From Moorella sp. E308F (lineage in GTDB: Bacteria > Bacillota > DSM-521 > Neomoorellales > Neomoorellaceae): a stretch of 64,000 bases of DNA. The position numbers and the translations under genes were made by a program. This document shows, piece by piece, positions 31,867-64,000 of this stretch (the first letter of the stretch is position 1; each line of letters opens with the position of its first letter). A model generated the notes under the pieces. It was given only the letters and a program-made list of their open reading frames with translations, made no database searches and was not told the origin of the DNA. The DNA lies in contig NZ_BJKN01000002.1 in the NCBI RefSeq assembly GCF_006538365.1, positions 124,001 to 188,000 of the forward strand, read 5' to 3'.

Positions 31867-32433
31867 ATGGCAGCCCATTACGGCGCCCATGAAGTAATGG
31901 AAATCCATGAAGTTTTGAGCGACACTATCGATGGGATCAATCAATTCCAGTTATACCGCCCCCATGTCAAAGATCCCCAGCTTCATTCTATCCTGGACAA
32001 GCAGCTGCAATTTATGACCCAGGAGTATAATAACATGGTTCAAGCCATCAACCAGCGCGGTATCACCCAGGCGATACCTTACCGCATACCCCGAACGGCT
32101 GCCCCGGTTTACGGCTTAAATAACCCGGAAACCCAAAAGCCGAATACCTCCATTCAAGATATGGATGACCGGGATGTAGCCAGCGGCATGCTGGGATGCC
32201 ATAAGGCTTCAGCAGCCTTTAGAATGATGGCTTCCTTGGAATGTGCCGACTTGGAGCTGCGGCGCATGATCCAGCAGGGGGCCATTAACTGCGCCGAGCA
32301 GGCTTATGAAGTATGGCAGTACATGAATCAAAAAGGCTATTACCAGGTACCGACCATGAAGGATGTAACGACAAGTACCATGATTAATGCTTACAGCCCA
32401 GCCAGTACAGGACAGATAAGGCAGTATCAGTAA
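31867..32433 (+). CDS. CotF-family spore coat protein
   Basis: 188 residues, ATG behind CAGGAGGAG. Helical, ferritin-like CotF family protein: HEVMEIHEVLSDTIDGINQFQLY, then CADLELRRMIQQGAINCAEQAYEVWQYMNQKGYYQVP. Members are spore coat or small acid-rich coat-associated proteins. A broken copy of its 3' third occurs at 55846-55970. Confidence 0.85.
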   Translation: MAAHYGAHEVMEIHEVLSDTIDGINQFQLYRPHVKDPQLHSILDKQLQFMTQEYNNMVQAINQRGITQAIPYRIPRTAAPVYGLNNPETQKPNTSIQDMDDRDVASGMLGCHKASAAFRMMASLECADLELRRMIQQGAINCAEQAYEVWQYMNQKGYYQVPTMKDVTTSTMINAYSPASTGQIRQYQ

Positions 32434-46500: not shown

Positions 46501-48048
46501 TCCGTCCGGTCCCGGTAGCGGGTATTCCCGCATCCCCCAATCGATGCGGTTCGTTTTCGCCGCCCACGTCAGGACCGCCAGGGTAAGGGCGCGGGGATGG
46601 GTCGTAGTGGGTCGCGGCGGGGTGATCCCGTAATCGGGGGTAGCGGTCGCAGCCGTCCGCCCGAACCGGTCAAAGCCCAGTTCCGCCACGGCGAACCGCT
46701 CGAGTTCGAAAACTTCGTTGAGCGAGTAGCGGCCGTCGAGATCGGTTACGGTGGCATACTGCACACTGCCGTCTTTGAAGCGCGTGCCCACGGGGATATA
46801 GGGGATACCTTCCTCGATATAGTTCCCGGCAGCATCCGTATCGCGTACGCCGTTGCCGTTCTCGTCCCTGAAGACCATGCCGCTGATCCAGCCGAACCAG
46901 CGCGGGATCCCGATATCGCCCATATCAATCGTTTCACCCGCGGCGATCTGGACAGTACGGAAGGAGATGATGTAGTCGAGGGGTTCATCCCAGATGGCCA
47001 TCTGATAGAGACCTGCAGGAACGTTGGTGATGGTAAAGGTTCCGTCAGGGTTGCCCCGGCCGGTATAGACCTGTTCGTCGGTGCGGCCGATATCGGTAAG
47101 AGCGATCCAGGGCCGGTCGACGGGTCCGCCGAGGATCAGGGGCCTGACTGGCGGTGTGAACTCGATGATCGTACGGACGCGGCCGGTGATCGTGCCCGTT
47201 CCCGCTCCGGGGGCGAACTCCTTCGGCCTGACAAAACCGAACCAGACCAGGGGTGCCCTGAAACCCTCGCGTGGGCTATACCCGTCGTTACCTTCTTCAA
47301 TCCAGGCGTCAATGACGTGGGTACCCTCGATGGTTGTGGTCTGGATCCAGTCGCTGCCGTCGGGCGGGATCGCCTGCACCCCGTACTTGCCCGGCGGGAG
47401 GTTTTCAATGACGGCGTCGCCGTTTTCATCCGTCCAGATTATGCCGCCGGTGTTCGGCACTGGTACCGGTTTCCCGTCCGGACCGATAATCAGGTTGCCG
47501 CTGGCGTCACGCTTGTAAACCGTTCCGAGGGGGTTGCCGAAATAGTCGACCGTAACCTCGCCGGCGGCATCTGCGAGCACGATGCGGAACCCCGGCAGGC
47601 CGTGTTCGAGGGGGAAGTCATCCTCGCCGTTGACAGGGTGGATATCTTCAAAGACGTGAACGCGGATTTTGGCAAGCGGCAAGGGGTGGGGCTGCAACTC
47701 AACGGTCAGCGTACTGTCACGCGTCAGGTTGATCCAGTTACCCCCGAGCTTGTAGCCGGGAGCCAGGACGGAGACGAGGTATTTGCCGGCCGGCAGGGAG
47801 ACGGTGGGTTGCCTGGAGTCCCCGGTGGCCACGACCGCACTGTGGCTGGCGCCGGGCTTCAACGAAGGCCAGTTGGCCGGATCGGGGTCGAAAGGATCTC
47901 CCACGTTGTCCTGGTTGACGATAAATTGGAAATTCGTTATGGGTATACCTGTACCGACTTGCGAGACAGTTACTGTGAGTTGAAAAATGCCCATTTGTTT
48001 AGTGGGACTTTTCCTGGATATTACTGGCTCCTTTGTACTAATATCCAT
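43537..48048 (-). CDS. 1503-residue SdrD-like/IPT/beta-helix protein
   Basis: ATG start behind GGGGGTTGGG. Residues about 20-930 are a chain of SdrD/Cna-B and carboxypeptidase regulatory-like beta-sandwich repeats, marked by recurrent DENGNGVRD-, PPGKYGVQ- and TDLDGRYSL-type motifs. About 955-1045 is an IPT/TIG domain (SVNPVYVTLTGNRLIFIRGRNFG). About 1050-1400 is a right-handed parallel beta-helix (TIQAAIDRAAPGSLIIINPG, then many NNVILSNGG-type turns), ending with an NSPVIDRG/DIGADE C-terminus. No signal peptide, sortase motif or S-layer domain is seen. It heads the operon with the three oxidase paralogues; a spore-surface scaffold is likely. Confidence 0.83.
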   Translation of the reverse strand: MDISTKEPVISRKSPTKQMGIFQLTVTVSQVGTGIPITNFQFIVNQDNVGDPFDPDPANWPSLKPGASHSAVVATGDSRQPTVSLPAGKYLVSVLAPGYKLGGNWINLTRDSTLTVELQPHPLPLAKIRVHVFEDIHPVNGEDDFPLEHGLPGFRIVLADAAGEVTVDYFGNPLGTVYKRDASGNLIIGPDGKPVPVPNTGGIIWTDENGDAVIENLPPGKYGVQAIPPDGSDWIQTTTIEGTHVIDAWIEEGNDGYSPREGFRAPLVWFGFVRPKEFAPGAGTGTITGRVRTIIEFTPPVRPLILGGPVDRPWIALTDIGRTDEQVYTGRGNPDGTFTITNVPAGLYQMAIWDEPLDYIISFRTVQIAAGETIDMGDIGIPRWFGWISGMVFRDENGNGVRDTDAAGNYIEEGIPYIPVGTRFKDGSVQYATVTDLDGRYSLNEVFELERFAVAELGFDRFGRTAATATPDYGITPPRPTTTHPRALTLAVLTWAAKTNRIDWGMREYPLPGPDGLLGTPDDELHGGISGIVYYATMRNELNPRYAVAEDYEPGIPNVTVNLYRLNDDGSTTLINSVQTDAWQHPTDCVRPDGSVDPGCIEVPNASNQIKDGVFDGGYSFATYFEPYFGAPGAVEKPLPPGTYLVQVVPPADPYNLWPDGSPKPLYKVLDPGAVNTGQGDRFVALSMTTRDQPASATDAALFRLPPPPYYGDKYDTKIVTVSPGQNAVADFFLYTDVPVPGRIVGFLLDDVNIETDPNFIYYGEKRGIPYTPVGIRDYTGRLITTVHSDANGIFEVLLPSTYTRNVPTPSGVAPGMYLVVGNDPGDPGRPNIRYNPNYQTLTMVFDVWPGKTTYADVALFPITAFVGRPGAQFSRPPLCQTTGAPEIGSVNPVYVTLTGNRLIFIRGRNFGAHPGTVTLNGRAIPVLAWRDTFILTYVPRSFAAGPAQMVITSSAGIPSTLGITIHVLVPGIYDPPIVNATTRTTIQAAIDRAAPGSLIIINPGVYYESPILYKNVKLQGMGAWVTRLDGRFFASYRQQWETRLAAITFDGPQEIPRGQVITVVAEDGAFGPAFTTQIDGLTITGARGEEGGGIVANAYCRYLEISNNVILSNGGGFGGAIMIGRPYAGDNQNDGVHIHHNRILNNGGISLAGGVGIFTGADGYEFDHNEVCGNYSAEYGGGLSHFGLSDGGRIHHNKFLFNASFDEGAGIFVGGEQPIPPATLSPGSGAVDIYNNLVQGNLANDDGGGIRLLRAGTHRINIYNNIITNNVSTDLGGGIALDDASNVVIVNNTVAKNITTATAEDSDGRPHGAGLVSEANSAAFQASLPPGAPTFSNPVLFNNIFWDNRAGWYDQTLNNGRGGIAGIGAPADPNPVNVIDLEVFGTPTPEVLSPRYCSLSQPYGVPVPTNIVGVNPSFVMPYDTTVTAVAFNMEPDFKTVKIITVEPQLQGDYHLKPNSPVIDRGTTTLVVNGDIYNAPTTDFDDQPRPRGAGVDIGADEAR

Positions 48049-48303: not shown

Positions 48304-48990
48304 TTACTGGGGCGGGATTTGCGGCTGGTCAAAGGACGGTGGTTGCGGGTTATGCAGGGAGGACCCCACATAGTTGCCGGGTGTGGACAGGTTGAAAAAG
48401 AGCCGGGCGTCCTTGTCCACACCCCAGTTTTGGGTGGAGCCGGTGCCCCGGACCTTCTGGAAGCATTCCCGGAACATGGTGTTGTGCGCCTCTTCCCTGT
48501 TTAGCAGGAAATCGATCATCTGCCGAATATACCGGTCGGCGATTTGCCGGTGCAGATATTCATAAACAACCTTGGCACGTTGTTCGGCGGCGATGTTGGA
48601 AAGCAGGTCCGCGGGCAGGTCACCGGTGGCTTCAATGTAAGACGCTGTCCACACCTGGCCGGAGGCGTTGCTGTAAAAGGGATTGAGTCCGGTCATTACA
48701 TGCGCCTGAACATTGCCGATGGTGGCGTTCATGGCCTGGGGTTCATGGCCGTTCAAGAGGTTGACTGCCGTACATACCATTTCCAGGTGACTGAGTTCCT
48801 CCGCGGCGATGTCAAGGAAAATATCCTTGATGGCCGGGTCTTGAATGCGAAAACTTTGGGCCAGGTACTGTAACCCGGCTTTCAGCTCACCGTGGGGGCC
48901 CCCGATTTGCTCCTGCAAAAGCGCCGCGTAGTTTGGGTTCGGCCGTTCCACACGCACCATTTCTAGCAGGTTCTTATCGTGCTTGAACAT
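48304..48990 (-). CDS. Manganese catalase/CotJC-family protein
   Basis: 228 residues, ATG behind AAAGGGGGA. Four-helix ferritin-like core with ligands in GPHGELKAGLQYL, AAEELSHLEM, AAEQRAKVVYEYL and NREEAHNTMF, the pattern of dimanganese catalases and the spore coat protein CotJC. The C-terminus is rich in Pro and Gln. It would remove peroxide, possibly in the spore coat. A CATACCAT box at about 30-40 bases upstream resembles a mother-cell sigma-E/K -10 element but no good -35 is seen. Confidence 0.85.
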   Translation of the reverse strand: MFKHDKNLLEMVRVERPNPNYAALLQEQIGGPHGELKAGLQYLAQSFRIQDPAIKDIFLDIAAEELSHLEMVCTAVNLLNGHEPQAMNATIGNVQAHVMTGLNPFYSNASGQVWTASYIEATGDLPADLLSNIAAEQRAKVVYEYLHRQIADRYIRQMIDFLLNREEAHNTMFRECFQKVRGTGSTQNWGVDKDARLFFNLSTPGNYVGSSLHNPQPPSFDQPQIPPQ

Positions 48991-51903: not shown

Positions 51904-51969
51904 GTATATACAAGTAGTTGGAGCACGAATATTTCAAACAACACATGTATTTTTGGAGGGTTGGCAGAA

Positions 51970-52770
51970 ATGCTTATAATTGGCGAGAAGCTCAACAGTG
52001 CAATTCCCAGCGTGCGTCAAATTATGGAGGAGAAAGATGTGGCGGCTGTTCAGGATCTGGCACTCAGGCAAGCAGCAGCAGGAGCCCATTATCTAGATGT
52101 GAACACTGCTCACTGCAGTGATGAAATAGCGTATATGGAATGGATTGTACGTACTGTTCAAGAGGTAACCGATGCGCCTTTATGCATTGACAGTACGGTG
52201 GGTCCGGTAATTGAGAAAGCATTGGAAACTGTTAAGGGGGATAAGAGCCGTGTCTTGATTAACTCTATTTCACTGGAAAAAAATCGCCTGGAACAGGTGT
52301 TGCCCCTTATTCTGGAGTACCAGTGTCCCGTAATTGGGCTGACCGTTGATGACAACGGTATTCCTAAAACCGTAGAAGACCGTATCAATATTGCTGAGCG
52401 CATGGTGGAGCTCCTGTCCAAACACAACTATAATTTGGACAACCTTTATATCGATCCTCTGGTGCTTCCTCTAGCGGTAAATCATGCAAATGCGGTAATC
52501 TTTTTTCAATGCCTGAGCGAAATTAAACGCTTGTTTAAAGTAAAAACAGTGTCCGGTTTAAGCAACATTTCTTTCAACATGCCCAAACGAAAGCTCATCA
52601 ACCGCTATTTCCTGGCCATATGCATGGCGCATGGGATGGACGCGGCTATACTAGACCCCCTGGACAATAAGATCATGACAGCGGTGAGTACGGTCAAATT
52701 ATTATTGGGCAACGATCCTTTTGGTAAAAACTTCTTAAAGGCGTATAGAAAAGGAACATTAGAGGATTAA
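51970..52770 (+). CDS. Pterin-binding methyltransferase (MtrH/AcsE-like)
   Basis: 266 residues from ATG 51970, 9 bases after GGAGGG (TTG 51961 touches that site). TIM-barrel of the dihydropteroate synthase-like family: LIIGEKLNSAIPSVRQ, AGAHYLDVNTA, CIDSTVGPVIEKAL, LINSISLEK, LYIDPLVLPLAV. It would move a methyl group between a corrinoid protein and tetrahydrofolate (methyltransferase II). It forms a set with the UroD-type enzyme and corrinoid protein downstream. Confidence 0.88.
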   Translation: MLIIGEKLNSAIPSVRQIMEEKDVAAVQDLALRQAAAGAHYLDVNTAHCSDEIAYMEWIVRTVQEVTDAPLCIDSTVGPVIEKALETVKGDKSRVLINSISLEKNRLEQVLPLILEYQCPVIGLTVDDNGIPKTVEDRINIAERMVELLSKHNYNLDNLYIDPLVLPLAVNHANAVIFFQCLSEIKRLFKVKTVSGLSNISFNMPKRKLINRYFLAICMAHGMDAAILDPLDNKIMTAVSTVKLLLGNDPFGKNFLKAYRKGTLED

Positions 52771-52896
52771 GGGGGTTGTGAGTTACAAAAAAGGGGGTGA
52801 AGCACCCAAGAAAGGTGAGAAGGTGGTCAACTCAAGGTAGTATGTTGTATGGGGAAGAAGAGTTTATTTAGTAAGCCAAAGGGAGGGAATTAGATC

Positions 52897-54069
52897 ATGA
52901 ACGAGAAGGAAAGGCTTTATGAAGAGCGGTTTAAGCGTTACACTACAGCTCTGGAGGGCGGTAAGCCTGACAAAGTGCCAGTAGTTTTTCCTCTAGGCGA
53001 GTGGGTGGTCAAGTACACGGATACCACCCTTCAGGAAGCGTATTACGACGTTGACAAGGCGACAGAAGTTGTTGCCGGGTTGATCCGGGATCTGGATTTC
53101 GATGCTATGTTCGGCTCCATCAATCTATGGTGGCCCCCCATGTTTGATGCCATGGGTTGTAAGCTATATAAGTTTCCGGGGATTTATTTTGAAGATAATT
53201 CAGGATTCCAATATATAGAAGAAGAATATATGAAGCCAGAAGACTACGACGAATTTATCGACAATCCCACCCAATGGCTGGCAAACAAGTATTTACCACG
53301 TATAAGTGAAGAGTTTGTCGAACCAGGGTCGTACCGGGCTACTGTAGCTTTAATAAAGAGCGCCGCCGCCTTTGCCATGCATAACGCCAAGTCGGCGGCG
53401 GTAGGGGAAAAATGGGCGAAGGAATACGGGATAGTACCCTCGGGGACAGGTCTTACCAAGGCACCTTTTGATACCCTGGGCGATGCCTTGCGGGGCACGA
53501 AAGGGATCCTCCTGGACCTTCGCCGACGGCCCGAGAAAGTTCAGGCCGCGTGTGAAGCCATTGTACCCCATAATATAGCCTATGCCATGATCACAGCGGG
53601 GGGAGATACTTCTCTACCCTGTTTCGCTCCTCTCCATAAAGGAGCCTATCCCTTCTTACGACTTGAACATTGGGAGAAATTCTACTGGCCTACCTGGAAG
53701 GCGGTTATCGAAGGACTTTGGGCCATGGGGAAAAGGACTTTCTTCTTTGCCGAAGGCGATTGGACGCCGTATTTGGACAAGATAGCCGAATTGCCGGATA
53801 AGAGCATCGTTTTTTGCATTGACTTAACTGATGCCAAGAAAGCCAAAGAGGTGCTGGGAGGCAGATTCTGCCTTTACGGAGGTGTGCCAACTACCCTGCT
53901 CACCTATGGCACGCCGCAAGAAGTGAAGGATTGTGTCAAGCAAGCCATAGAGGAATTAGGTGGCGATGGAGGGTTTGTCCTTGCCGCTGGCGGAGTGGTC
54001 ATGGGCGACGCCAAAAGGGAAAACATTGTTGCCATGCTCGAGGCAGCCAGGGAGTACGGTGTTTATTAA
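52897..54069 (+). CDS. UroD-family corrinoid methyltransferase (methyltransferase I)
   Basis: 390 residues, ATG behind AAAGGGAGGG. It belongs to the uroporphyrinogen decarboxylase/MtaA-like fold. The C-terminal FCIDLTDAKKAKEVLGGRFCLYGGVP carries Cys residues at the place of the zinc site in methyl-transferring members, and the arginine cluster of true decarboxylases is not seen. It probably transfers a methyl group from a substrate such as a methoxylated aromatic to the corrinoid protein encoded 280 bases downstream. The substrate is unknown. Confidence 0.85.
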   Translation: MNEKERLYEERFKRYTTALEGGKPDKVPVVFPLGEWVVKYTDTTLQEAYYDVDKATEVVAGLIRDLDFDAMFGSINLWWPPMFDAMGCKLYKFPGIYFEDNSGFQYIEEEYMKPEDYDEFIDNPTQWLANKYLPRISEEFVEPGSYRATVALIKSAAAFAMHNAKSAAVGEKWAKEYGIVPSGTGLTKAPFDTLGDALRGTKGILLDLRRRPEKVQAACEAIVPHNIAYAMITAGGDTSLPCFAPLHKGAYPFLRLEHWEKFYWPTWKAVIEGLWAMGKRTFFFAEGDWTPYLDKIAELPDKSIVFCIDLTDAKKAKEVLGGRFCLYGGVPTTLLTYGTPQEVKDCVKQAIEELGGDGGFVLAAGGVVMGDAKRENIVAMLEAAREYGVY

Positions 54070-54100
54070 ACTTTGACAGGGGTAAGAGGAGGTGGACAGA

Positions 54101-54274
54101 ATGGCCGAAATTAAGGCAAAAGATTTTGTGGCAGAAGCAGGTTCGTGTGTACCGTGGAAGATTAAAAAAGAAGAATTCGGGCAATTAGCCGGCAACGAGG
54201 AAATTGTAAAAAAGGAATGGGAAAAGCTTGACGCCTTTGCCTATGCTTTTATCTGGTTCTGGGTACAGCGCTAA
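54101..54274 (+). CDS. 57-residue protein within the methyltransferase operon
   Basis: ATG 54101 lies about 8 bases after AGAGGAGG; GTG 54092 would overlap that site. The product is charged (MAEIKAKDFV, KKEEFGQLAGN) and ends in an aromatic stretch (FAYAFIWFWVQR). No family is recognised. It sits 31 bases after the UroD-type gene and 74 before the corrinoid gene, so it is probably a partner or regulator of these enzymes. Confidence 0.6.
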   Translation: MAEIKAKDFVAEAGSCVPWKIKKEEFGQLAGNEEIVKKEWEKLDAFAYAFIWFWVQR

Positions 54275-54348
54275 ATATCGAGTGATAAAGGAAAATTAAT
54301 TCCAGGTAATGGAGCGCTGTTAAATATATTGAGAGGAGTGGGGTAGTT

Positions 54349-54972
54349 ATGCCCAAAGAGGCCCTGCCGAAAGCCATGGCTGAATTAGAAGAAGAACAAG
54401 TTCTCACTTTGGTCAAAGAATTATTAGGAAACGGAGTTGCTCCTTTGGAAATTGTCAAAGCTCTACAGGAAGGAATGGTGGAAGTAGGCAACCGCTTTGA
54501 GAGCGGGGATTATTTCTTGAGCGAATTGGTTATGGCCGGCGAGATCATGAAAGGTGCCATGGACATCTTAGAGCCTCATTTGAGCGGCGAGAGCGCAGAA
54601 CATAAGGGAACTATTGTTATCGGTACGGTTAAAGGAGATATCCACGACCTGGGTAAGAATATCGTCATAATGCTTCTCAAAGGTTCGGGATACAACGTGA
54701 TTGACTTGGGAGTGGATGTACCCAAAGAAAAATTTGTCGAGGCTGTTAAGGACACGGGCGCGCCCCTGGTAGGCATGAGCGTGCTCTTAACCAGTTGTCA
54801 GGGGGCATTAAAGGAGACCATTGAAGCCTTGCGAGCTGAGGGTCTAAATACCAAAGTGATAATTGGCGGCAATTATATTAATGAAACAGTTAGAAAGCAT
54901 GTGGGCGCAGATTATTTTGCTACTACGGCCAGCGATGGGCTCAAAGCGGCTACTGAGGTGTTTGGAGGCTAA
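54349..54972 (+). CDS. Methyl-carrying corrinoid protein
   Basis: 207 residues, ATG behind GAGAGGAGTGGGG. N-terminal helical cap (about 10-85) and B12-binding Rossmann domain with lower-ligand His99 in GDIHDLGKN, then SVLLTSC and IGGNYIN. It carries the methyl group on cobalt between methyltransferases I and II. Confidence 0.94.
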   Translation: MPKEALPKAMAELEEEQVLTLVKELLGNGVAPLEIVKALQEGMVEVGNRFESGDYFLSELVMAGEIMKGAMDILEPHLSGESAEHKGTIVIGTVKGDIHDLGKNIVIMLLKGSGYNVIDLGVDVPKEKFVEAVKDTGAPLVGMSVLLTSCQGALKETIEALRAEGLNTKVIIGGNYINETVRKHVGADYFATTASDGLKAATEVFGG

Positions 54973-54990
54973 GATCTAAGCCGGTAAAAA

Positions 54991-55025
54991 GAGGGATAGG
55001 GGCATCATATATTGCCCCTTCCCTC
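54991..55025 (+). terminator. Hairpin after the corrinoid protein gene
   Basis: GAGGG and AGGGGCA (54991-55003) pair with TGCCCCT and CCCTC (55013-55025) with a small internal loop. No T-run follows, so termination strength is uncertain. A 18-codon frame behind CCGGAGGA (from GTG 55065) is too short to support. Confidence 0.5.
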
Positions 55026-55202
55026 AATTCATTGGTTAACCAAAAAGAGTCCCCGGAGGAAAAAGTGAATATTATGAAGAATAATATATGTTATTTACCT
55101 TGGGCAGGTTGTGCAGCTTGACGGGTGGCGCAATTACCTTGTTCCCACTTGGGGCGGGTGCTAAAGTTTGAATAAGTCATTTTTAGAATGGGATGTAGGA
55201 GA

Positions 55203-55874
55203 ATGGGGCGATATACAGTTATTGCCTGCAAAGTTATGGAAGAAGAAATTTTGTCTCTGGCTCCGCAGGGGTGTGAGTTACACTTCCTGAACTCGGAATT
55301 GCACCGCTCCCCGGAGCGATTACGGCAGGCTTTACAGGAGGCCATTGATTGCGCCTCCGGCAGTGACTTTATACTGTTAGGCTACGGTCTTTGCGGCGGA
55401 GCCCTGGAGGGGCTGCGGGCCAGAACCACACCCCTCGTGATACCCAAGGTGGATGATTGTATTCCTCTGTTGTTGGGGTCCTGGGAAGCTAGACGTCAGT
55501 GGGGGCTAGATACTTACTTTTTATCTGCCGGTTGGCTGGCCGGGGAGGATAACCTGATACGGGAGTACGAACGCTGCCTTGCACGGTACGGTAAAGAGCG
55601 GGGTAGACGCATCATGCGCCACTTATTTTGCCACTACCGGCGCCTGATGTTCATAAATACTGGTCGGCTAGGGGAAGAGGTGGCTAAGGAAGCGGCTCGT
55701 GAAGTAGCGGAAAAACTGGGGTTAAGTTTTGAGATCACGAGTGGAAACAAGAATTACTTGAGGCAACTGTTGTTGGGGCCGTGGGATTACCAGTTTTGGA
55801 AGGTGCAGCCCGGTCAAGAGGTCCTGTTGGCCGGGTTGCACGATTGTTCAGCAGGGGGCAATCAACTGCGCTGA
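55203..55874 (+). CDS. DUF1638 protein, C-terminus joined to CotF remnant
   Basis: 223 residues from ATG 55203 (MGRYTVIACKVMEEE); ATG 55188 lacks a ribosome site. DUF1638 features are HFLNSELHRSPERLRQALQ, LLGYGLCGGALEGL and PKVDDCIPLLLGS. These proteins are often encoded with UroD-type corrinoid methyltransferases. The last 9-10 codons are read out of frame in a CotF-type fragment, so the native end was probably lost or replaced. Confidence 0.8.
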   Translation: MGRYTVIACKVMEEEILSLAPQGCELHFLNSELHRSPERLRQALQEAIDCASGSDFILLGYGLCGGALEGLRARTTPLVIPKVDDCIPLLLGSWEARRQWGLDTYFLSAGWLAGEDNLIREYERCLARYGKERGRRIMRHLFCHYRRLMFINTGRLGEEVAKEAAREVAEKLGLSFEITSGNKNYLRQLLLGPWDYQFWKVQPGQEVLLAGLHDCSAGGNQLR

Positions 55875-55970
55875 GCAGGCTTATAAAGTATAGCAGTACA
55901 TGAACCAGAAAGGCTCCTACCAGGTACCAGCCATGAAGAACGTAACGATAAGCACAAGGAAGATTAACCT
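55846..55970 (+). pseudogene. Remnant of a CotF-family gene
   Basis: In frame from 55846 the translation is VQQGAINCAEQAYKV, stop, QYMNQKGSYQVPAMKNVT, matching the intact CotF-like gene at 32276-32380. By eye 16 of about 108 bases differ. TAG at 55891-55893 replaces TGG. The 5' two thirds are absent. Confidence 0.85.
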
Positions 55971-56037
55971 TATAAGGGGAGGTGAGGCCGGTTGCTTCAT
56001 GCCCTTGAATACTGAACGCCTGCAGCACCCAGGAATT

Positions 56038-56050
56038 TCCCATTATGGGA
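56038..56050. promoter_or_regulatory. Candidate enhancer site of the sigma-54 activator
   Basis: TCCCATTATGGGA is a perfect palindrome about 118 bases upstream of the -24 element of the sigma-54 promoter, a usual distance for an upstream activator site. Confidence 0.4.
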
Positions 56051-56166
56051 CAAATATTTCCAAAATGAGAACGCGTGTATTTATAAATTCTTAAAGATAT
56101 TTCTCTCAGGGGCTTAATTTATGAGATTTATCAAGATGAAAGACAGCGCCCAATAGCTGTGAATAT

Positions 56167-56182
56167 TGGCACGGATATTGCT
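56167..56182 (+). promoter_or_regulatory. Sigma-54 (-24/-12) promoter
   Basis: TGGCAC (56167-56172), 5 bases, TTGCT (56178-56182) match the sigma-54 consensus, with the required 10 bases between GG and GC. It would start near 56194 and drive the zinc ribbon, transporter and transhydroxylase-like genes. A sigma-54 activator is encoded at 61820-63898. Confidence 0.85.
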
Positions 56183-56358
56183 ATATGTTTTAATCAGTGA
56201 GGTGATTTATATTGGTGCGCTAGAGAGTAAGTAAAGGAGACGGCCATGATTATTGTTAGGCATCTAAAAACATGCAATCAACCCTGAAATTAAAACTCAC
56301 GGTAACATGTCAAGGACTAAAAATGAGAGTTGATAACTTTAGCGAGGAGGAAACTTAA

Positions 56359-56493
56359 ATGTGCTTTAGACCACCTGCTGTAGCCAAGAAGATTAAATGT
56401 CCCAATTGTGGAAAGGAAGTAATTAGGCAAGGAAATAACCCCAAAATATGTCCTCATTGTAAGGCGAACCTAGATTCTGCTGATAAGAAATAA
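56359..56493 (+). CDS. 44-residue zinc ribbon protein
   Basis: ATG 56359 stands behind AGCGAGGAGGAAAC. The product starts MCFRPPAVAKK and has two CxxC pairs (CPNCGKE, CPHCKANL), a rubredoxin-like or zinc ribbon knuckle. It is the first gene after the sigma-54 promoter. Function unknown. Confidence 0.72.
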   Translation: MCFRPPAVAKKIKCPNCGKEVIRQGNNPKICPHCKANLDSADKK

Positions 56494-56898
56494 AAAGCAA
56501 ATTGTTATTAAAACTGCTAGCAGCTCGTGTGAATAATAGTTGCTGACAACTTCGGGTTAGGGGCCATGTCTTTTCATAAGCTACGTTAGCTACTTTTCCC
56601 CACCGAAGTGGGGGTAGATAGGGGACTTAGCATCACTTTTTATCATGGAAGTAGAGGATGCTTTTGGGTTTGGGATATTTTTCACATAGGCTGCTAGATG
56701 AGATATGTGTATTCCAGTGCTTTTGGACATGATGGGAGAAATAACTCTTTTGCAGTGAGGGCAATAAACCTTTATATACAGCCGGAGGAGGGGAGCAGTA
56801 AAAGGGACAGCGCTACGAGTTTTTACCAGGAGAGAGTATGTCACCGGGGCTTGTGTACGAACGTTTAGAAGTCTCCGAATAACAAAGGGGGGTGTACT
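56494..56898. other. 405-base stretch without a supported gene
   Basis: It holds a GC hairpin (CCCCAC/GTGGGG near 56598-56613, with a TTCG loop on the minus strand) and a minus-strand frame (56590-56844) with one CPHC motif but no recognisable ribosome site or family. I do not call a gene. Confidence 0.4.
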
Positions 56899-58074
56899 GT
56901 GAAAAGAAAAGCGTGGGCGGTTATGTGGGCGGTCTATCTTGCGGGCGTAGCTGTAGCGTTGAACCAGTTTAAAGTACCGCCGGTAATGCAGGTTCTTATG
57001 GAAAGTCTTCAGGCTGATATGGCAACGGCGGGATGGCTAATGTCTGTTTTTTGCATCGCCGGGGTCATACTGGCACTTCCGGCAGCGTTCCTCCTGGCAG
57101 GTCTGGGGCCGAAAAACAGTGGATTAATAGGTCTAGGTTGTATAATTATTGGTGCAGTAATTGGAGCTGTGGCTAAAAGTGCAGCGATTATGCTTATTGC
57201 CAGGACTATCGAAGGCGTTGGGTTGGCTTTAATTGCAGTCGTGGCTCCGGCGGTTATTAGTATATGGTTTGAACCACATGAACGAGGATTGCCTATGGGT
57301 ATTTGGGCTACATGGGTACCAGTTGGCAGTTTTCTTATTTATAATTTGGCCAACCCAATTGCAAAACTCGGTGGCTGGACCAGTATCTGGTGGTTTGGAG
57401 CTGTTTTTGCTTTAGTTGCATTTATGGTGTATAGCGCTATTGTTGCCCCGCCCAATAAAACGGCGAGTGGGAGTGAAGAGGGTGGTGGCGCTATCTCTAT
57501 TAGCCATGGGTTGAAAAGTATAAATACCTGGCTTATTTCCATTGCCTTTGCCGCATTTAACTTCAGTTTTATAGCCTATGCCACCTGGGCACCCACCTTC
57601 TTAGCCGAAGTTCATAAGATGGATCCGGGAGCTGCCAGTTTTTACGCTAGCCTGGTAACCCTGGTTTTTATACCTGGCGGCATATTCGCTGGATGGGTTC
57701 TTGACCGCTTCGGAAATCGTAAAGGTATCCTGGCAGCCTCCTTCATTATTTGTACGATTTTAGTGTTATGGGCTTTTAAAGTAGGGGGCAATGTTGGAAT
57801 TCTTGTTTCTTATTATGTTATTTTAGGTCTGGCGGCAAGCTTTGTTCCGACCTGCGTTTTTACCATTGCTCCGGAAACAGCTATTAATCCCCAATTTGCT
57901 GGCGTAGCCTTGGGAGTGGTGATCCTTGGTCAGAACAGTGGCATGTTCATCGGACCTCCTGTTGTAGGTCAGGCTATAGCAAGTGGAGGTTGGGATGCGG
58001 GAGTATATCCTTTAGTTGCAGGGCTTCTTGTCTCTCTGGTGGCAACTCTATTAATACGCACTAAAACAGAGTAA
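56899..58074 (+). CDS. MFS transporter
   Basis: 391 residues, GTG behind AAAGGGGGGTG. Twelve membrane helices in two halves; motif A-type loop DRFGNRKG follows TM8, and the first-half loop is the weaker GLGPKNSG. NarK/NNP or OxlT-like by general shape. In this operon it probably imports the aromatic substrate. Confidence 0.85.
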   Translation: MKRKAWAVMWAVYLAGVAVALNQFKVPPVMQVLMESLQADMATAGWLMSVFCIAGVILALPAAFLLAGLGPKNSGLIGLGCIIIGAVIGAVAKSAAIMLIARTIEGVGLALIAVVAPAVISIWFEPHERGLPMGIWATWVPVGSFLIYNLANPIAKLGGWTSIWWFGAVFALVAFMVYSAIVAPPNKTASGSEEGGGAISISHGLKSINTWLISIAFAAFNFSFIAYATWAPTFLAEVHKMDPGAASFYASLVTLVFIPGGIFAGWVLDRFGNRKGILAASFIICTILVLWAFKVGGNVGILVSYYVILGLAASFVPTCVFTIAPETAINPQFAGVALGVVILGQNSGMFIGPPVVGQAIASGGWDAGVYPLVAGLLVSLVATLLIRTKTE

Positions 58075-58204
58075 AAGGAGGTGAACTGTTTTCTAGAAAG
58101 GAGGTTTTTTGCCAAAAATTAAAGGGAAACCTGTAATGCCTCGAGGATCGAATTTCAATGCTTAATGACAAAATTAAGAAAAACTAACGGAGGGATACTA
58201 TGCC

Positions 58205-60796
58205 ATGACGGAAAAGGACACGAAACTCCAAAATGGTGTACGTACCTATTACAAGAATTTGGGTTTGTGTTCCTTTGCCTTTGGATCAAACTCGGCAGAA
58301 ATTGACGTTAAGGACGGTAAAATTCTTCGTATTCGACCGTTGAGATATAACCGTAAGTATAAGACAGAACAATTGCGACCCTGGAAGATTAAGGCCAGAG
58401 GGAAAACCTTTGAAGCACCGATGAAGTCGCTTCTGAGCCCCTTTAACTATGTGTACAAGAAGCGGACGTATTCGCCGAACCGGATACTATACCCCATGAA
58501 AAGGGTGGACTGGGATCCGGAAGGAGAGCGCAACCCGCAAAACAGGGGTAAGAGTAAATTTGTACGTATCACCTGGGATGAAGCTGCTGAATTAATTGCT
58601 AAGGAATTGAAGCGAGTGTGCGAAAAATACGGCCCGACCTCGGTTTTGGTACAGGGGGACGGCCACGGCGAGACTAAGACCATTCATGGTCCTCACGGCT
58701 GTCAGATTCGCTTGATGGAGCTTCTCGGCGGTTACACCATCCAGGCACGCCAGCCCGACAGCTGGGAAGGCTGGTACTGGGGCGCCAAGCATGTCTGGGG
58801 ACAGGATCCAGTAGGCCAGGGTAGGCAGGCCAATCTAATTAAGGATATTTCGGAAAACACTCAAATGATCCTGTTCTGGGGTTGCGACCCAGAGACGACA
58901 CCGCTTGCATGGGGCGGGCTGCAGGCTAGCCGTTTGTGCTTCTGGTTTACCGAACTAGGCATAAAATCCGTATACATCTGTCCCGACCTTAATTATGGTG
59001 CAGCAGTTCATGCGGATAAATGGATACCTGTAAGACCCAACACGGACGCGGCATTACAGCTCGCTATTGCCTATACATGGATTACGGAAGACACTTATGA
59101 TAAAGATTATGTCGCCACTCATACTCACGGTTTTGAGGAATTTAAGAAGTATGTTCTAGGCGAAGAAGACGGCGTTCCCAAGACACCAAAGTGGGCCGAA
59201 GATATCTGCGGTGTTCCTGCCCGGGTTATTAAGGCTTTAGCCAGGAAATGGGCTCGGGAAGCAACCAGCATTGCCCACAATAACGGCGGCTCTTACATCA
59301 GGTCCTGCTATGCCCACGAGCCGGGACGTCTGGAAGTAATCCTTTTGGGCATGCAGGGCTTAGGAAAACCCGGTCAGGGACAGCTCAAGCTCTTTGAGTG
59401 GCAGCTTTTCAGCTTGCATGACCAGAACCCAATGCCCCGAAGAGAAATAATACCCAGCCCGGAAGGGGCCTACCAGGGATTTACATTTCCAGTGCCAAAG
59501 CAGTTTATCCCTAAAACTCTCATCCCGAAAGCAATTTTGAGCGACGAACCCATTACCTGGTACGGGATAACATATGCAGGAATTCCCAAGGAGGATCAGT
59601 TCGTACAGTATAAATATCCTGCTGAGGGATGTTCGGAAATTCACATGATATGGAGCGACAGCCCATGCTGGTCCACTTGTTGGAATGGTGGAAACATGTG
59701 GATTGAGGCTCTACGCAGTCCTAAAATTGAGTGCGTTGTCATGCAGCATCCGTGGATGGAAAATGACTGCCTGTTTGCCGACATAATCCTGCCTATTAAC
59801 ACAAAGTTTGAGGAAGAAGACTTTGGGGTTGATGTTTTAGGTGACAGCTTCAATGTAGTCCTTTACGAAGGGCAGTGCATTGAACCTCTAGGAGAATCAA
59901 AGAGCGACTATGAAGCAGTAGCGGAAGTAGCAAAGAAACTTGGCCTCTACGAAGAATACACTAGAGGTAAGAGTATTGAGGACTTAATTAAGGACGGTTA
60001 CGAACAATCCGGGATAAAAGACAGGATAAGCTATGAAGAATTTCGGGAGAAAGAATACTTTGTAATACCTACGGCTGAGGACTGGGAGAATGACGAACCC
60101 GGTTTCAGCCCGTTCTATAAGGATCCAGAGAACAATCCTCTGGATACACCGACCGGAAAGCTTGAATTCTATTCCGTAGGTCTGGCTGAAAACTTCCCGG
60201 ATGATAAAGAACGTCCGCCGGTGCCTCATTGGATACCTTACGGCGAAACTCATCAAGAAAGCCTTTTGCATCCACGTTCCCAAAAGTATCCATTTCTTAT
60301 AGTTTCCAATCATCCTCGCTGGCGGTGTCATGCTCAGCTGGATGATATACCATGGTTCCGTGAGATTCCTACTTGTAAAGTTAAAGGGCCGGATGGATAT
60401 TTATACGAACCGGTCTGGATTAATCCAGTAGATGCAAAGGCATTGGGAATCAAAAGCGGTGATGTAGTTAAGATATATAACGATCGCGGATGGGTACTTG
60501 GTGGGGCATATGTTACCGAACGTATAATGCGGGGGGTAGTTTATCAAGATCATGGTGCAAGACTAGATCCGATAATACCTGGTAAAGCCGACCGTGGTGG
60601 AGCTAACAATCTTATCTGCCCTACCAACACGACATCAAAGAATTGTGCAGGGGAAGTCACGAGCGGGTATCTTGTAGGCGTAGAAAAAGTGGATATTGAG
60701 GAAATGAAAAAGCAATACCCTGAGGCGTTTAACAGGCCTTACGATCCTTATTATGGAGTTCGTTTCGAGGCCTGGATTACGGAGGTGAAAAACTAA
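58205..60796 (+). CDS. athL: Pyrogallol-phloroglucinol transhydroxylase-like molybdopterin enzyme, large subunit
   Basis: 863 residues, ATG behind ACGGAGGGA. A DMSO-reductase-family protein without an N-terminal [4Fe-4S] motif, as in transhydroxylase. Segments resemble AthL of Pelobacter acidigallici as I recall it: PWKIKARGKTF, YPMKRVDWDPEGERNPQ, QPDSWEGWYWG (the Ser is the expected Mo ligand), AIAYTWITEDTYDKDYVA and CIEPLGESKSDYE. The known enzyme moves a hydroxyl group from tetrahydroxybenzene to pyrogallol to give phloroglucinol without net redox change. The substrate here may differ. The last base is shared with the small-subunit gene. Confidence 0.85.
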   Translation: MTEKDTKLQNGVRTYYKNLGLCSFAFGSNSAEIDVKDGKILRIRPLRYNRKYKTEQLRPWKIKARGKTFEAPMKSLLSPFNYVYKKRTYSPNRILYPMKRVDWDPEGERNPQNRGKSKFVRITWDEAAELIAKELKRVCEKYGPTSVLVQGDGHGETKTIHGPHGCQIRLMELLGGYTIQARQPDSWEGWYWGAKHVWGQDPVGQGRQANLIKDISENTQMILFWGCDPETTPLAWGGLQASRLCFWFTELGIKSVYICPDLNYGAAVHADKWIPVRPNTDAALQLAIAYTWITEDTYDKDYVATHTHGFEEFKKYVLGEEDGVPKTPKWAEDICGVPARVIKALARKWAREATSIAHNNGGSYIRSCYAHEPGRLEVILLGMQGLGKPGQGQLKLFEWQLFSLHDQNPMPRREIIPSPEGAYQGFTFPVPKQFIPKTLIPKAILSDEPITWYGITYAGIPKEDQFVQYKYPAEGCSEIHMIWSDSPCWSTCWNGGNMWIEALRSPKIECVVMQHPWMENDCLFADIILPINTKFEEEDFGVDVLGDSFNVVLYEGQCIEPLGESKSDYEAVAEVAKKLGLYEEYTRGKSIEDLIKDGYEQSGIKDRISYEEFREKEYFVIPTAEDWENDEPGFSPFYKDPENNPLDTPTGKLEFYSVGLAENFPDDKERPPVPHWIPYGETHQESLLHPRSQKYPFLIVSNHPRWRCHAQLDDIPWFREIPTCKVKGPDGYLYEPVWINPVDAKALGIKSGDVVKIYNDRGWVLGGAYVTERIMRGVVYQDHGARLDPIIPGKADRGGANNLICPTNTTSKNCAGEVTSGYLVGVEKVDIEEMKKQYPEAFNRPYDPYYGVRFEAWITEVKN

Positions 60797-61608
60797 TGAA
60801 AGTATTTGTTATTGATGTTGCTAAATGTAATGGCTGTTATAACTGCCAGCTGGTCTGCAAAGACGAACATGTTGACAACGACTGGTCACCCTATGCCAAA
60901 CCCCAACCAGATACAGGTCACTTCTGGATGAAGTTAGTTGATATAGAACATGGCAGTGTTCCAAAGGTAAAAATCGAATATCAGGCAAGACCTTGTATGC
61001 ATTGCGATAATGCAAAATGTATTGAGGTTGCCGGGGATGGGTCAGTATATAAGAGGAACGACGGGTTGGTCATTATAGACCCCGAAAAGGCTACAGGTCG
61101 CAAGGATCTTGTCGATTCTTGTCCCTATGGCGCTATTTACTGGAATGACAAATTAAATTTACCACAGAAATGTACCGGATGCGCGCATCTGGTTGACGCA
61201 GGCGAAGTCCCCCGCTGCGTTGAAGCATGTGCTACAGAGGCGATAAAATTTGGCGAGGAAGAAGAATTAAAGGAATTAATCTCCCAGGCTGAGGTATTAC
61301 AGCCTGAACTCGGTCTAAAACCCAGGGTATATTACCTAAACCTTCCTAAATTCTTTGTAGCAGGGGAAGTTTATGATCCGGATATCGATGAAGTCCTGGA
61401 AGGGGCGCAGGTATCCCTCATTAACAACGAGACCGGCCAAAGCTGGACAGAGACAACTGACGATTTCGGTGATTTTTGGATCAGACGCCTTAACAGTGGC
61501 TGTTATACACTAAAAATTGAAAAGAACGGTTATCAACCTTATCAAGTTCAAGACCTGAAAGTAGATAAAAGCGTCAATATTGGTAGTATTGCGCTGAAAC
61601 GGGAATGA
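60796..61608 (+). CDS. athS: Transhydroxylase-like small subunit with three [4Fe-4S] clusters and C-terminal beta domain
   Basis: 270 residues, ATG overlapping the athL stop, GGAGGTG upstream. Twelve cluster cysteines (CNGCYNCQLVC, CMHCDNAKC, SCPYG, CTGC, RCVEAC) fit three [4Fe-4S] clusters as in AthS, rather than four. Residues about 185-270 form a Cna-B-like beta domain (FVAGEVYDPDIDEVLEGAQVS), also a feature of AthS. It pairs with the large subunit. Confidence 0.86.
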   Translation: MKVFVIDVAKCNGCYNCQLVCKDEHVDNDWSPYAKPQPDTGHFWMKLVDIEHGSVPKVKIEYQARPCMHCDNAKCIEVAGDGSVYKRNDGLVIIDPEKATGRKDLVDSCPYGAIYWNDKLNLPQKCTGCAHLVDAGEVPRCVEACATEAIKFGEEEELKELISQAEVLQPELGLKPRVYYLNLPKFFVAGEVYDPDIDEVLEGAQVSLINNETGQSWTETTDDFGDFWIRRLNSGCYTLKIEKNGYQPYQVQDLKVDKSVNIGSIALKRE

Positions 61609-61651
61609 TGTAATATCAGGTGTTTGACGTTTTCATGTGCCTTTGCTAGTT

Positions 61652-61680
61652 AGGGGAGCCAAGATAAAGCTCCCCTTTTT
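61652..61680 (+). terminator. Intrinsic terminator after athS
   Basis: AGGGGAGC (61652-61659) and GCTCCCCT (61669-61676) with a 9-base loop, then TTTTT. Confidence 0.88.
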
Positions 61681-61720
61681 AAATACCCATTCATTCCTGC
61701 CGTCACAGTCTTTTTGAAAG

Positions 61721-61764
61721 TGGTAGAGTAGAGGCGTGCTGCGCGGCATACTTCTGCTCTACCA
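61721..61764. repeat. Long imperfect hairpin between convergent genes
   Basis: TGGTAGAG (61721-61728) pairs with CTCTACCA (61757-61764), and the stem continues inward with AGA/TCT and TGC/GGCA pairs. No T-run. It could end the regulator transcript or be a repeat-element relic. Confidence 0.5.
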
Positions 61765-61819
61765 CCTTATTTCACTGATCTAAATTTAATCTAAGGACTT
61801 GTACTGCGCTTTTGGAATA

Positions 61820-63898
61820 CTATGTCGAGCAATCTAGTTTGTATTGCTTAAGTTTTCTATACAGAGTGGATTTACCAAGTCCAAGTAGTTTCGCCGCTTT
61901 AGGGATATTGTTGCCAGTAGAAGCCATGGCGTTTTGAATGACTATCTTTTCAGCTTCCTCCAATGAGGTTATCCCGGCTATGCTGCAAATACCTGTACTT
62001 TTCAAGGTGGTTCCCCTCACTACTTCGTTAGGCAGGTGCTGGACGTCTATAAGGCCGTCCTGGGACATGTTGACGGCATAAATCATAGCATTCTCCAGCT
62101 GTCTGACGTTACCGGGCCATTCGTACTCTAAAATTATTTTTTTTGCAGCCGGGCTTATAGTTGGCAATACATGTCCTGTCTTTTTACAGTAGTATTCTAT
62201 AAAGTGCTGGCATAACAGCAAGATATCTTCCTGTCGCTGGCGCAGGGGCGGTATTTCTAGCTTGAGAACCGCCAGCCGGAAGTACAGGTCGAGACGAAAC
62301 TGATTTTCTTGCACCATCTGGTAGAGATTTTTGTTAGTTGCAGCTATAACGCGAAAGTCAACAGGAATATACTTCCTACCTCCCAGCCGCATGACGCGCT
62401 TGTCCTCTAAAACCCTAAGCAACGTGGCCTGGGTTTCAATGGGCATATCGCCTATTTCGTCAAGGAAAAGGGTTCCTTTGTGAGCCAGCTCAATTTTGCC
62501 TGGTCTTCCATTGCGTTCGGCACCCGTAAAGGTTCCGCCTTCATAACCAAATAGCTCGCTTTCAATAAGGTTTCTGGGAATCGCAGAACAGTTCAAAGCA
62601 ACGAAAGGACCTTCGGGCCGGTATTGATTGTGAATAGCCTGGGCAAATAGCTCCTTTCCGGTGCCGCTCTCTCCTATTAATAAAATATTTTCGCCGGCAT
62701 CGGCGAACTTACGGGCCAAGTCTTTTGCATGGTTTATGCAGGCGCTGTTGCCAATAATATCATCAAAGTGATACTTGGCCACTGCACCAGTTCGCACATT
62801 AACAAGGTTGTTGATTTTTTCAGACAGGTTGACACGGATGATGGCACCTTCTATGCGTTTTTCTTTCTGGCCTGGTATAAATTGTATGCTAAATACGCAG
62901 TGGCGTTCCTTTTTGCAGTTGCGAATAGTTGCTTCCAGGTAATTAACAGGTTTCTGGCTTGTTAATACCTGCATTACCCTGTCGTCCACAAAGTCCCTTA
63001 TGTTTCTGCCTTCAACTTTGCCGCCGTTTGGATTAAGTATTAGAGCTGCTTCCTGGTTAGCCTTAATAATCTTATTTTCACAATCGACAGCTATGATTCC
63101 AGCATCAATGCATGCGAGAATTGTTTCTAATGTATTATTCATAACCAAGAGCCTATGGTTTTTTTCTTTGAGTTTGAGGTGGTTTTCAATAGCTACCGCC
63201 AGGGAGGCAACCCAGCCCAGGGTATGCGACTGTAAATTTTTCAGGTCTTTTTCCCACGGCCGTTCCCCCAGAGCCTGTACCAGTACCAGGGTGCCAATAA
63301 GGTCGCCTTTTTCATCCATGATAGGAGCGGCTGAACTGATGTTGTCTTCAAGGGCAATACAGTAATTTTCGGGACCCATTAACTGGACCGGACATTTTAA
63401 AATCATACTGAGCCCGTGGGCTAAAGTTCCTGAGGTCTCTTCGTTCCAGATCGCCCCTACCACCGCATTTATTGACTTAAAATAGGAGATTTCGTTAGTA
63501 TCTCCTTCAAGGTAAAGAATAGTACCGTTGGCGCTATGGAGGCTTAAAATGTAGCCGGAAGTCTTGAGCAGGTGCTTAAATGCGTTTATAAGGGTTTTGG
63601 TGGTTGAAATTAACAGGCTGTTTTCTTCAAGTATAGCCTCCAGTTTATCCTTAGGCATATTATGCCCGATTTTTGTGGCAAAAGGATCAATGTTGTTTTC
63701 GCGTGACCTTAACCAGGAAGCAGCAACCTCCGGGCTTAAACAAGAAAAAGTCCGTGGATCTTCATTGTGGTATAGAAAACGTTGTTTACAATGCTGAATT
63801 TCTTGCCAGCGCCGCTGGAATAAGGTATAGTCAAAAGGATTTGCCATAAATTCGGTCCGGTTATCGTTACAGGCTACATCAGGCCTGATAACTTCCAT
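61820..63898 (-). CDS. Sigma-54-dependent activator with GAF and PAS domains (AcoR-like)
   Basis: 692 residues from ATG 63898 behind AGGAGGG; a longer frame to 63964 lacks this site. N-terminal GAF-type sensor region (about 60-220), PAS (about 250-350), AAA+ domain (about 370-600) with Walker A GESGTGKELFAQ, Walker B GTLFLDEIGDMP and the sigma-54 contact loop GTFTGA in place of the usual GAFTGA. C-terminal Fis-type helix-turn-helix (AAKLLGLGKSTLYRKLKQY). It probably senses an aromatic compound and activates the promoter at 56167. Confidence 0.92.
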   Translation of the reverse strand: MEVIRPDVACNDNRTEFMANPFDYTLFQRRWQEIQHCKQRFLYHNEDPRTFSCLSPEVAASWLRSRENNIDPFATKIGHNMPKDKLEAILEENSLLISTTKTLINAFKHLLKTSGYILSLHSANGTILYLEGDTNEISYFKSINAVVGAIWNEETSGTLAHGLSMILKCPVQLMGPENYCIALEDNISSAAPIMDEKGDLIGTLVLVQALGERPWEKDLKNLQSHTLGWVASLAVAIENHLKLKEKNHRLLVMNNTLETILACIDAGIIAVDCENKIIKANQEAALILNPNGGKVEGRNIRDFVDDRVMQVLTSQKPVNYLEATIRNCKKERHCVFSIQFIPGQKEKRIEGAIIRVNLSEKINNLVNVRTGAVAKYHFDDIIGNSACINHAKDLARKFADAGENILLIGESGTGKELFAQAIHNQYRPEGPFVALNCSAIPRNLIESELFGYEGGTFTGAERNGRPGKIELAHKGTLFLDEIGDMPIETQATLLRVLEDKRVMRLGGRKYIPVDFRVIAATNKNLYQMVQENQFRLDLYFRLAVLKLEIPPLRQRQEDILLLCQHFIEYYCKKTGHVLPTISPAAKKIILEYEWPGNVRQLENAMIYAVNMSQDGLIDVQHLPNEVVRGTTLKSTGICSIAGITSLEEAEKIVIQNAMASTGNNIPKAAKLLGLGKSTLYRKLKQYKLDCST

Positions 63899-64000
63899 AC
63901 CAACCCTCCTAGTAAACAGAAAACCTACATCCTGGCAGGATTTTAGGCCGAGAAAAAAATGCAACGTTCTGTTTAAGTAATTCGAGGTTCAGACCTTTTC

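Follow-up and report, generated by a model that had tools for sequence, protein, structure and literature searches.

Genes for predicted methyl transfer from methoxylated aromatics of the lignin type stand next to a gene pair resembling pyrogallol transhydroxylase (PGTH) in the 3.06-Mb genome of a thermophilic, acetogenic Moorella, and the question that this locus raises is whether they form a single pathway, in which an aromatic would be demethylated and the resulting trihydroxybenzene rearranged to phloroglucinol, or whether two separate systems are neighbours. The initial annotation had proposed the former. The window, by which we mean the whole stretch of 64,000 nucleotides analysed here (G000:C2:124001-188000), has Moorella stamsii DSM 26217 as its nearest named relative (large subunit of the molybdoenzyme 99% identical; same contig as G001:C24). 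We consider it probable that the locus is made of two independent modules and that the second is an inducible system whose molybdoenzyme processes phenolic hydroxyl groups, more probably as a reductive dehydroxylase than as a transhydroxylase.

Gene content and the methyl-transfer module

Gene content was checked by listing the open reading frames, by profile scans and by searches for solved relatives. The open reading frames and the profile scans confirmed the whole gene inventory previously given for 51970-61608 (MT2, MT1, corrinoid protein, DUF1638, MFS transporter, PGTH-like pair and sigma-54 activator), to which we add a gap of 1 kb separating DUF1638 from the transporter, a small ORF at 56359-56493 and a scar at 55849-55955. 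The features of the locus are the following:

51961..52770, + strand: MT2, MtvA-type methyltetrahydrofolate:corrinoid methyltransferase (PF00809, Pterin_bind, E 9e-21; PRK07535 over cut-off)
52897..54069, + strand: MT1, MtvB-type O-demethylase methyltransferase of the UroD family (PF01208, E 2e-25)
54349..54972, + strand: corrinoid protein, MtvC-type (B12-binding and B12-binding_2 domains)
55188..55874, + strand: DUF1638 protein, member of the methyl set (PF07796, E 2e-42)
55849..55955, + strand: rearrangement scar and breakpoint, 107 bp left from the 3' part of the gene at 31867-32433
56167..56182, + strand: putative sigma-54 promoter, perfect match to the consensus, TGGCACGGATATTGCT
56359..56493, + strand: small MCFRPP zinc-ribbon ORF, 44 aa
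56899..58074, + strand: MFS transporter (PF07690, E 2e-50)
58205..60796, + strand: thL, large subunit of a PGTH-like bis-MGD molybdoenzyme, clade B (37.9% to PGTH)
60796..61608, + strand: thS, iron-sulphur small subunit with a C-terminal carboxypeptidase-regulatory-like domain (Fer4_11, CarboxypepD_reg)
61820..63964, - strand: sigma-54 activator of the PAS-AAA-Fis type (PF00158, E 2e-63; HTH_8)

Elsewhere in the window, the minus strand at 43537-48048 encodes a putative surface protein of 1503 residues that is rich in repeats, and this stretch has mostly 96-97% DNA identity in M. stamsii and G003. A 228-residue protein resembling manganese catalase is present in two copies with 86% DNA identity that flank the region on its two sides, one in the window (48304-48990) and the other at L106:17057-17743.

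Judged by its sequence, the first module (51961-55874) is an ordinary MtvABC system of an already known kind with DUF1638 attached, for which demethylation is predicted. It encodes together a UroD-family MT1, a B12-binding corrinoid protein and a pterin-binding MT2 whose best solved relatives are 4o0q and 2yci. Most other Moorella genomes have one or two orthologues of MT1 (73-87% identical), as do two further genera of the family, and the MT2 and corrinoid genes almost always adjoin them; the corrinoid proteins next to MT1 in other Moorella and in relatives within the family are 80-91% identical to that of the window, and throughout Moorella the MtvABC orthologues are found apart from thLS. 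The order MT2-MT1-corrinoid-DUF1638 is repeated in G014 (L145), from which we regard DUF1638 as part of the methyl set. Another genome, G004, contains only two close homologues of MT1 (75 and 80% full-length identity), located near 0.31 and 1.26 Mb, and because these positions fit the published numbering of the mtv genes of M. thermoacetica (Mothe_c03140-03190 and c13000; PMC13391211) we infer that G004 is M. thermoacetica and that the two copies are the published MtvBs, MT1 being an orthologue of them under this species assignment. MtvB, OdmB and VdmB are methoxyaromatic demethylases of the UroD superfamily (PMC13222342), and several Moorella strains use vanillate and syringate (PMC11328732). 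The earlier assignment of the methyl set to the aromatic O-demethylases agrees with these results as a prediction of activity. In the predicted reaction a phenyl methyl ether, of vanillate or syringate type, would lose its methyl group through MT1 to the corrinoid protein in its Co(I) form, from which MT2 would carry it to tetrahydrofolate for use in acetogenesis.

Other methyl systems were examined as well. A methanol or glycine-betaine system, which the initial annotation had named as the alternative, is excluded, MT1 being a UroD-family protein and MtvB orthologue and neither MtaB- nor MttB-type. A chloromethane system of the CdmB type is likewise excluded: CdmB (9rui) is the best, and the only, solved relative of MT1, and the MtvB orthologues are much closer. 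The Rfam scan around the methyl set gave no cobalamin riboswitch, nor any other RNA, at the gathering threshold.

Predicted sigma-54 control and the breakpoint between the modules

Examination of the 64-kb window identified a single consensus-perfect -24/-12 site (0.06 expected by chance), which lies 3' of DUF1638 and 5' of the zinc-ribbon ORF, the MFS gene and both subunits of the molybdoenzyme. The consensus sequence, the activator gene adjacent to the operon and the presence of rpoN in the genome are those of a sigma-54-dependent operon. Because this only site comes after the methyl set and DUF1638, sigma-54 can drive the second half of the locus only, and its control over the whole of 51970-61608 was not confirmed. 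The promoter is identical in M. stamsii (L205:15161), and similar sigma-54 sites stand upstream of thL in seven other Bacillota loci, one contig being counted twice among them. Homologues of the activator lie less than 10 kb from thL in 12 stretches, all from Bacillota and counting the window itself and repeats of the same genomes. No receiver domain was found in the activator, which is likely to be a dedicated regulator of the phenol module. Matches to sigma-70 promoters and terminators did not exceed those in shuffled sequences and were not used.

A second perfect sigma-54 site is located just beyond the end of the window, at C2:188361 (L106:2361-6396 being G000:C2:188361-192396). It is followed by a gene (C2:188681-190873) for a molybdoenzyme of 731 residues, to which acetylene hydratase is the closest solved structure; the enzyme has NrfC- and NrfD-like partners, and two other Moorella genomes encode it with 96-97% identity. 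The activator is therefore flanked on either side by a sigma-54 promoter, and the methyl set is served by neither. We propose that the second module comprises 56167-63964 and extends past the window to about C2:192.4 kb, and that both sites are working promoters. The activator, presumably sensing an aromatic inducer, would switch on the small ORF, the MFS importer and thLS from the first, and probably also the acetylene-hydratase/catechol-dehydroxylase-type enzyme with its NrfC/NrfD-like partners from the second. Transporters of the MFS family 59-65% identical to that of the window adjoin thLS in G016, G089 and L028.

The breakpoint at 55849 falls exactly between the two modules. The 107-bp remnant is a direct copy, 86% identical, of part of the gene at 31867-32433, the intact copy of which is 23.5 kb away, and DUF1638 takes its last 8 or so codons from the scar. 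In two sister Moorella genomes the sigma-54 promoter comes after an intact equivalent of this gene, which in G010 immediately precedes it; the other genome is G003. The phenol module of M. stamsii is 96% identical and has MtvABC replaced before the promoter: there a different insert of 12 kb (C13, L205:2814-15386) lies between the LUD genes and the identical promoter and encodes an aldehyde ferredoxin oxidoreductase (AOR) and a corrinoid protein, besides two methyltransferases of the MtmB family and an Nramp-like transporter, the contig ending 0.2 kb past the promoter and its join to the thLS contig being deduced from their overlap in window coordinates. The slot before the phenol promoter is thus variable, and in M. 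stamsii it is a site for methyl-transfer cassettes. In the stretches around 86 further genes of the thL family, which for 44 genes included 7 kb or more of upstream sequence, neither MT2, corrinoid nor DUF1638 genes were found; one copy, in Sporomusa acidovorans, has a lone UroD gene beside it. Taken together, the scar, the arrangements in the relatives and the absence of this adjacency elsewhere indicate that the neighbourhood of thL and Mtv genes is the product of a rearrangement not seen elsewhere. In the Sporomusa stretch (L035:9986-20344) the clade-B thLS is followed by an old-yellow-enzyme-type reductase, the UroD protein, an MFS transporter and a sigma-54 activator; this UroD protein is 28% identical to the MT1 of the window, and no corrinoid or MT2 gene is present there.

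These results bear on the explanation that the locus is one unit, in which the Mtv set demethylates methoxylated trihydroxybenzenes and thLS converts the product to phloroglucinol. An MtvB-type demethylase is indeed present, thLS is related to PGTH and some genomes have clade-B relatives within phloroglucinol clusters, but the phenol genes have their own promoter, which excludes the methyl set, the two halves meet at a breakpoint and their adjacency is not conserved in relatives. We therefore regard a single pathway or regulon as most improbable. A search of the open-access literature found no published locus joining O-demethylation and transhydroxylation, which is weak evidence of absence. 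The locus provides no evidence for joint action, and joint action of the two modules on a methoxylated polyphenol in the cell is possible.

Relation of the molybdoenzyme to pyrogallol transhydroxylase

The large subunit thL shares 37.9% identity with PGTH across 782 positions, and thS matches the small subunit of PGTH (4v4c_B) with E 7e-63 and has its PGTH-type iron-sulphur character. The predicted structure of thL matches PGTH (4v4c) with Z 36.1 and DMSO reductases with Z 35.0, so that the model supports a Ser-ligated DMSO-reductase fold in which PGTH is not clearly separated from the DMSO reductases. In a tree of 103 sequences, obtained by a quick search with SH-aLRT support only, thL did not group with PGTH: the PGTH clade and an 87-member clade containing the window protein (clade B) separated as sisters, each on a long stem, with an SH-aLRT of 99%. 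Four residues, His144, Asp174, Ser175 and Trp176 in PGTH numbering, are invariant in both clades and correspond in thL to His154, Asp185, Ser186 and Trp187, Ser186 being the molybdenum ligand. Tyr152, Tyr404 and Tyr560 of PGTH, which we take to be substrate or co-substrate contacts, are present in all 11 members of the PGTH clade and in none of 88 in the clade of the window, and thL lacks all three.

The genomic context gave a similar picture. In phloroglucinol breakdown the final cleavage of a ring fragment belongs to the BKACE family (PMC10470551), whose presence in a genome is a supporting rather than a strictly defining trait of PGTH. The genome of the window has no BKACE-family lyase, whereas G003 and G129, both with PGTH-clade enzymes, have three and six, respectively; a single cyclase-family protein in the genome matches the cyclases of phloroglucinol clusters at only 20-28%. 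Clade position and residues thus argue that thL is not a pyrogallol transhydroxylase and belongs to a sister clade. The initial description of a transhydroxylase-like enzyme was right as to kinship in sequence and fold and wrong if taken to mean the PGTH clade, and the proposed ring transhydroxylation to phloroglucinol is contradicted by that clade position, by the absence of the three tyrosines and by the genome without a BKACE lyase. The same tyrosines, lyase and poorly matching cyclase-family protein also count against the one-unit explanation discussed above. Many PGTH-like genes of gut Coriobacteriia, Chloroflexota and acetogens are read as pyrogallol transhydroxylases, and by both the tree and the residue test this name is wrong for the clade-B set, which makes up the majority of the genes sampled.

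The sister Moorella genome G003 is a better candidate for a combined demethylation and transhydroxylation metabolism. Its contig C35 (L113, C35:66000-85900, and C35:11646-14793) has a group of genes for PGTH-clade enzymes, an SDR resembling phloroglucinol reductase, a BKACE lyase and a hydroxyacyl-CoA dehydrogenase, and MtvABC lies on this contig too, about 58 kb away.

A Dodh-like enzyme in the same slot and the proposed function of thLS

In G010 the type of promoter, the MCFRP ORF, the activator (86% identical and in the same place) and the downstream enzyme and its operon (97%) are as in the window, and the slot of the MFS-thLS genes is occupied by a protein 45% identical to the DOPAC dehydroxylase Dodh of Gordonibacter, with an iron-sulphur partner at 55% and a different transporter. 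Dodh was located by means of a published primer (PMC7028382), and the same small MCFRPP ORF lies upstream of it, as it does near many clade-B thL genes. Clade-B thL genes have multiplied in Gordonibacter and Raoultibacter, just as catechol dehydroxylases have (PMC7028382). The swap in G010, the small ORF at Dodh and the multiplication of clade B together point to an inducible role of thLS in the processing of phenolic hydroxyl groups. Membership of thL itself in the Dodh/Dadh clade of catechol dehydroxylases is excluded on sequence by its 22% identity to Dodh and by its position on the opposite side of the tree, outside the acetylene hydratase/catechol dehydroxylase branch.

The zinc-ribbon ORF (40-80 residues, beginning with MCFRPP) stands beside PGTH-like enzymes of clade B as well as beside catechol dehydroxylases, both in Bacillota and in Coriobacteriia (window 56359-56493; L170:1815-2060; L202:4864-5001; L028-L031, L035, L041, L050, L062, L065, L068 and L108). 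It may be an accessory that these loci have in common, or a marker for them.

Whether thLS removes, transfers or adds a hydroxyl group requires weighing three readings. We favour a cytoplasmic Mo/Fe-S enzyme that most likely acts on a polyphenol hydroxyl, with reductive dehydroxylation more probable than PGTH-type transhydroxylation. Against dehydroxylation we count that thS keeps the architecture of the PGTH small subunit and the operon offers no obvious partner through which electrons would enter, and that clade-B thL genes are found inside phloroglucinol-pathway clusters (L075, L097, L098 and L109), in one of which, L098, the stretch examined has no PGTH, so that clade B may also perform a hydroxyl transfer that feeds phloroglucinol. 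These clusters, the conserved His154, Asp185, Ser186 and Trp187 and the two-subunit build would equally suit two modules in which thLS is a different phenol transhydroxylase, acting for example on hydroxyhydroquinone or tetrahydroxybenzene; we hold this to be unlikely, though worth keeping in mind, given the loss of the three PGTH-clade tyrosines, the genome without a BKACE-type lyase and the exchange with a catechol dehydroxylase in G010. Very unlikely, in our judgement, is a third reading, also with two modules, in which thLS is of the RehL kind (resorcinol hydroxylase), adding a hydroxyl and feeding electrons to a chain; PgtL and RhL do form one family within the Ser-ligated DMSO-reductase group (PMC10100899).

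Products of demethylation such as protocatechuate or gallate could be substrates of thLS, and the two modules could cooperate metabolically in this way. More tentatively, and with rather less confidence than doubt, we suggest that clade-B thLS form an additional class of molybdenum-dependent phenol dehydroxylases, undescribed so far and descended from the PGTH line, interchangeable with catechol dehydroxylases in acetogens and gut Coriobacteriia within a common regulatory shell, which in Moorella would consist of the sigma-54 promoter, the MCFRPP zinc-ribbon protein, the activator and the NrfCD-linked partner enzyme, and perhaps serving a quinone-linked respiration of polyphenols. If true, this would account for what acetogens may do with catechols and pyrogallols that remain once O-demethylation is complete. 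The cassette swap of G010 provides a concrete and testable guess for the role of clade B, Moorella and Sporomusa being cultivable.

Placing the locus among known systems, the first module resembles the MtvABC of Moorella thermoacetica in its UroD-type MT1, corrinoid protein, pterin-binding MT2 and the order MT2-MT1-corrinoid, and differs only in the attached DUF1638 and the neighbouring phenol module, no functional difference being seen. Compared with the transhydroxylase AthLS (4v4c), thLS has the fold, the two subunits, the molybdenum-ligand serine, the His, Asp and Trp residues and the regulatory-like C-terminal domain of the small subunit in common, but it shares 38% identity, belongs to the other clade, lacks Tyr152, Tyr404 and Tyr560 and comes from a genome without a BKACE lyase. 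With the gut catechol dehydroxylases Dodh, Hcdh and Eadh, thLS has the promoter, activator and small-ORF surroundings in common, as the G010 swap and the MCFRPP ORF next to Dodh indicate, whereas thL itself stands far from Dodh in identity and in the tree. The likeness to acetylene hydratase and NrfCD-linked molybdoenzymes belongs to the enzyme outside the window (C2:188681-190873), which has the NrfC/NrfD-like partners and is 34% identical to Dodh.
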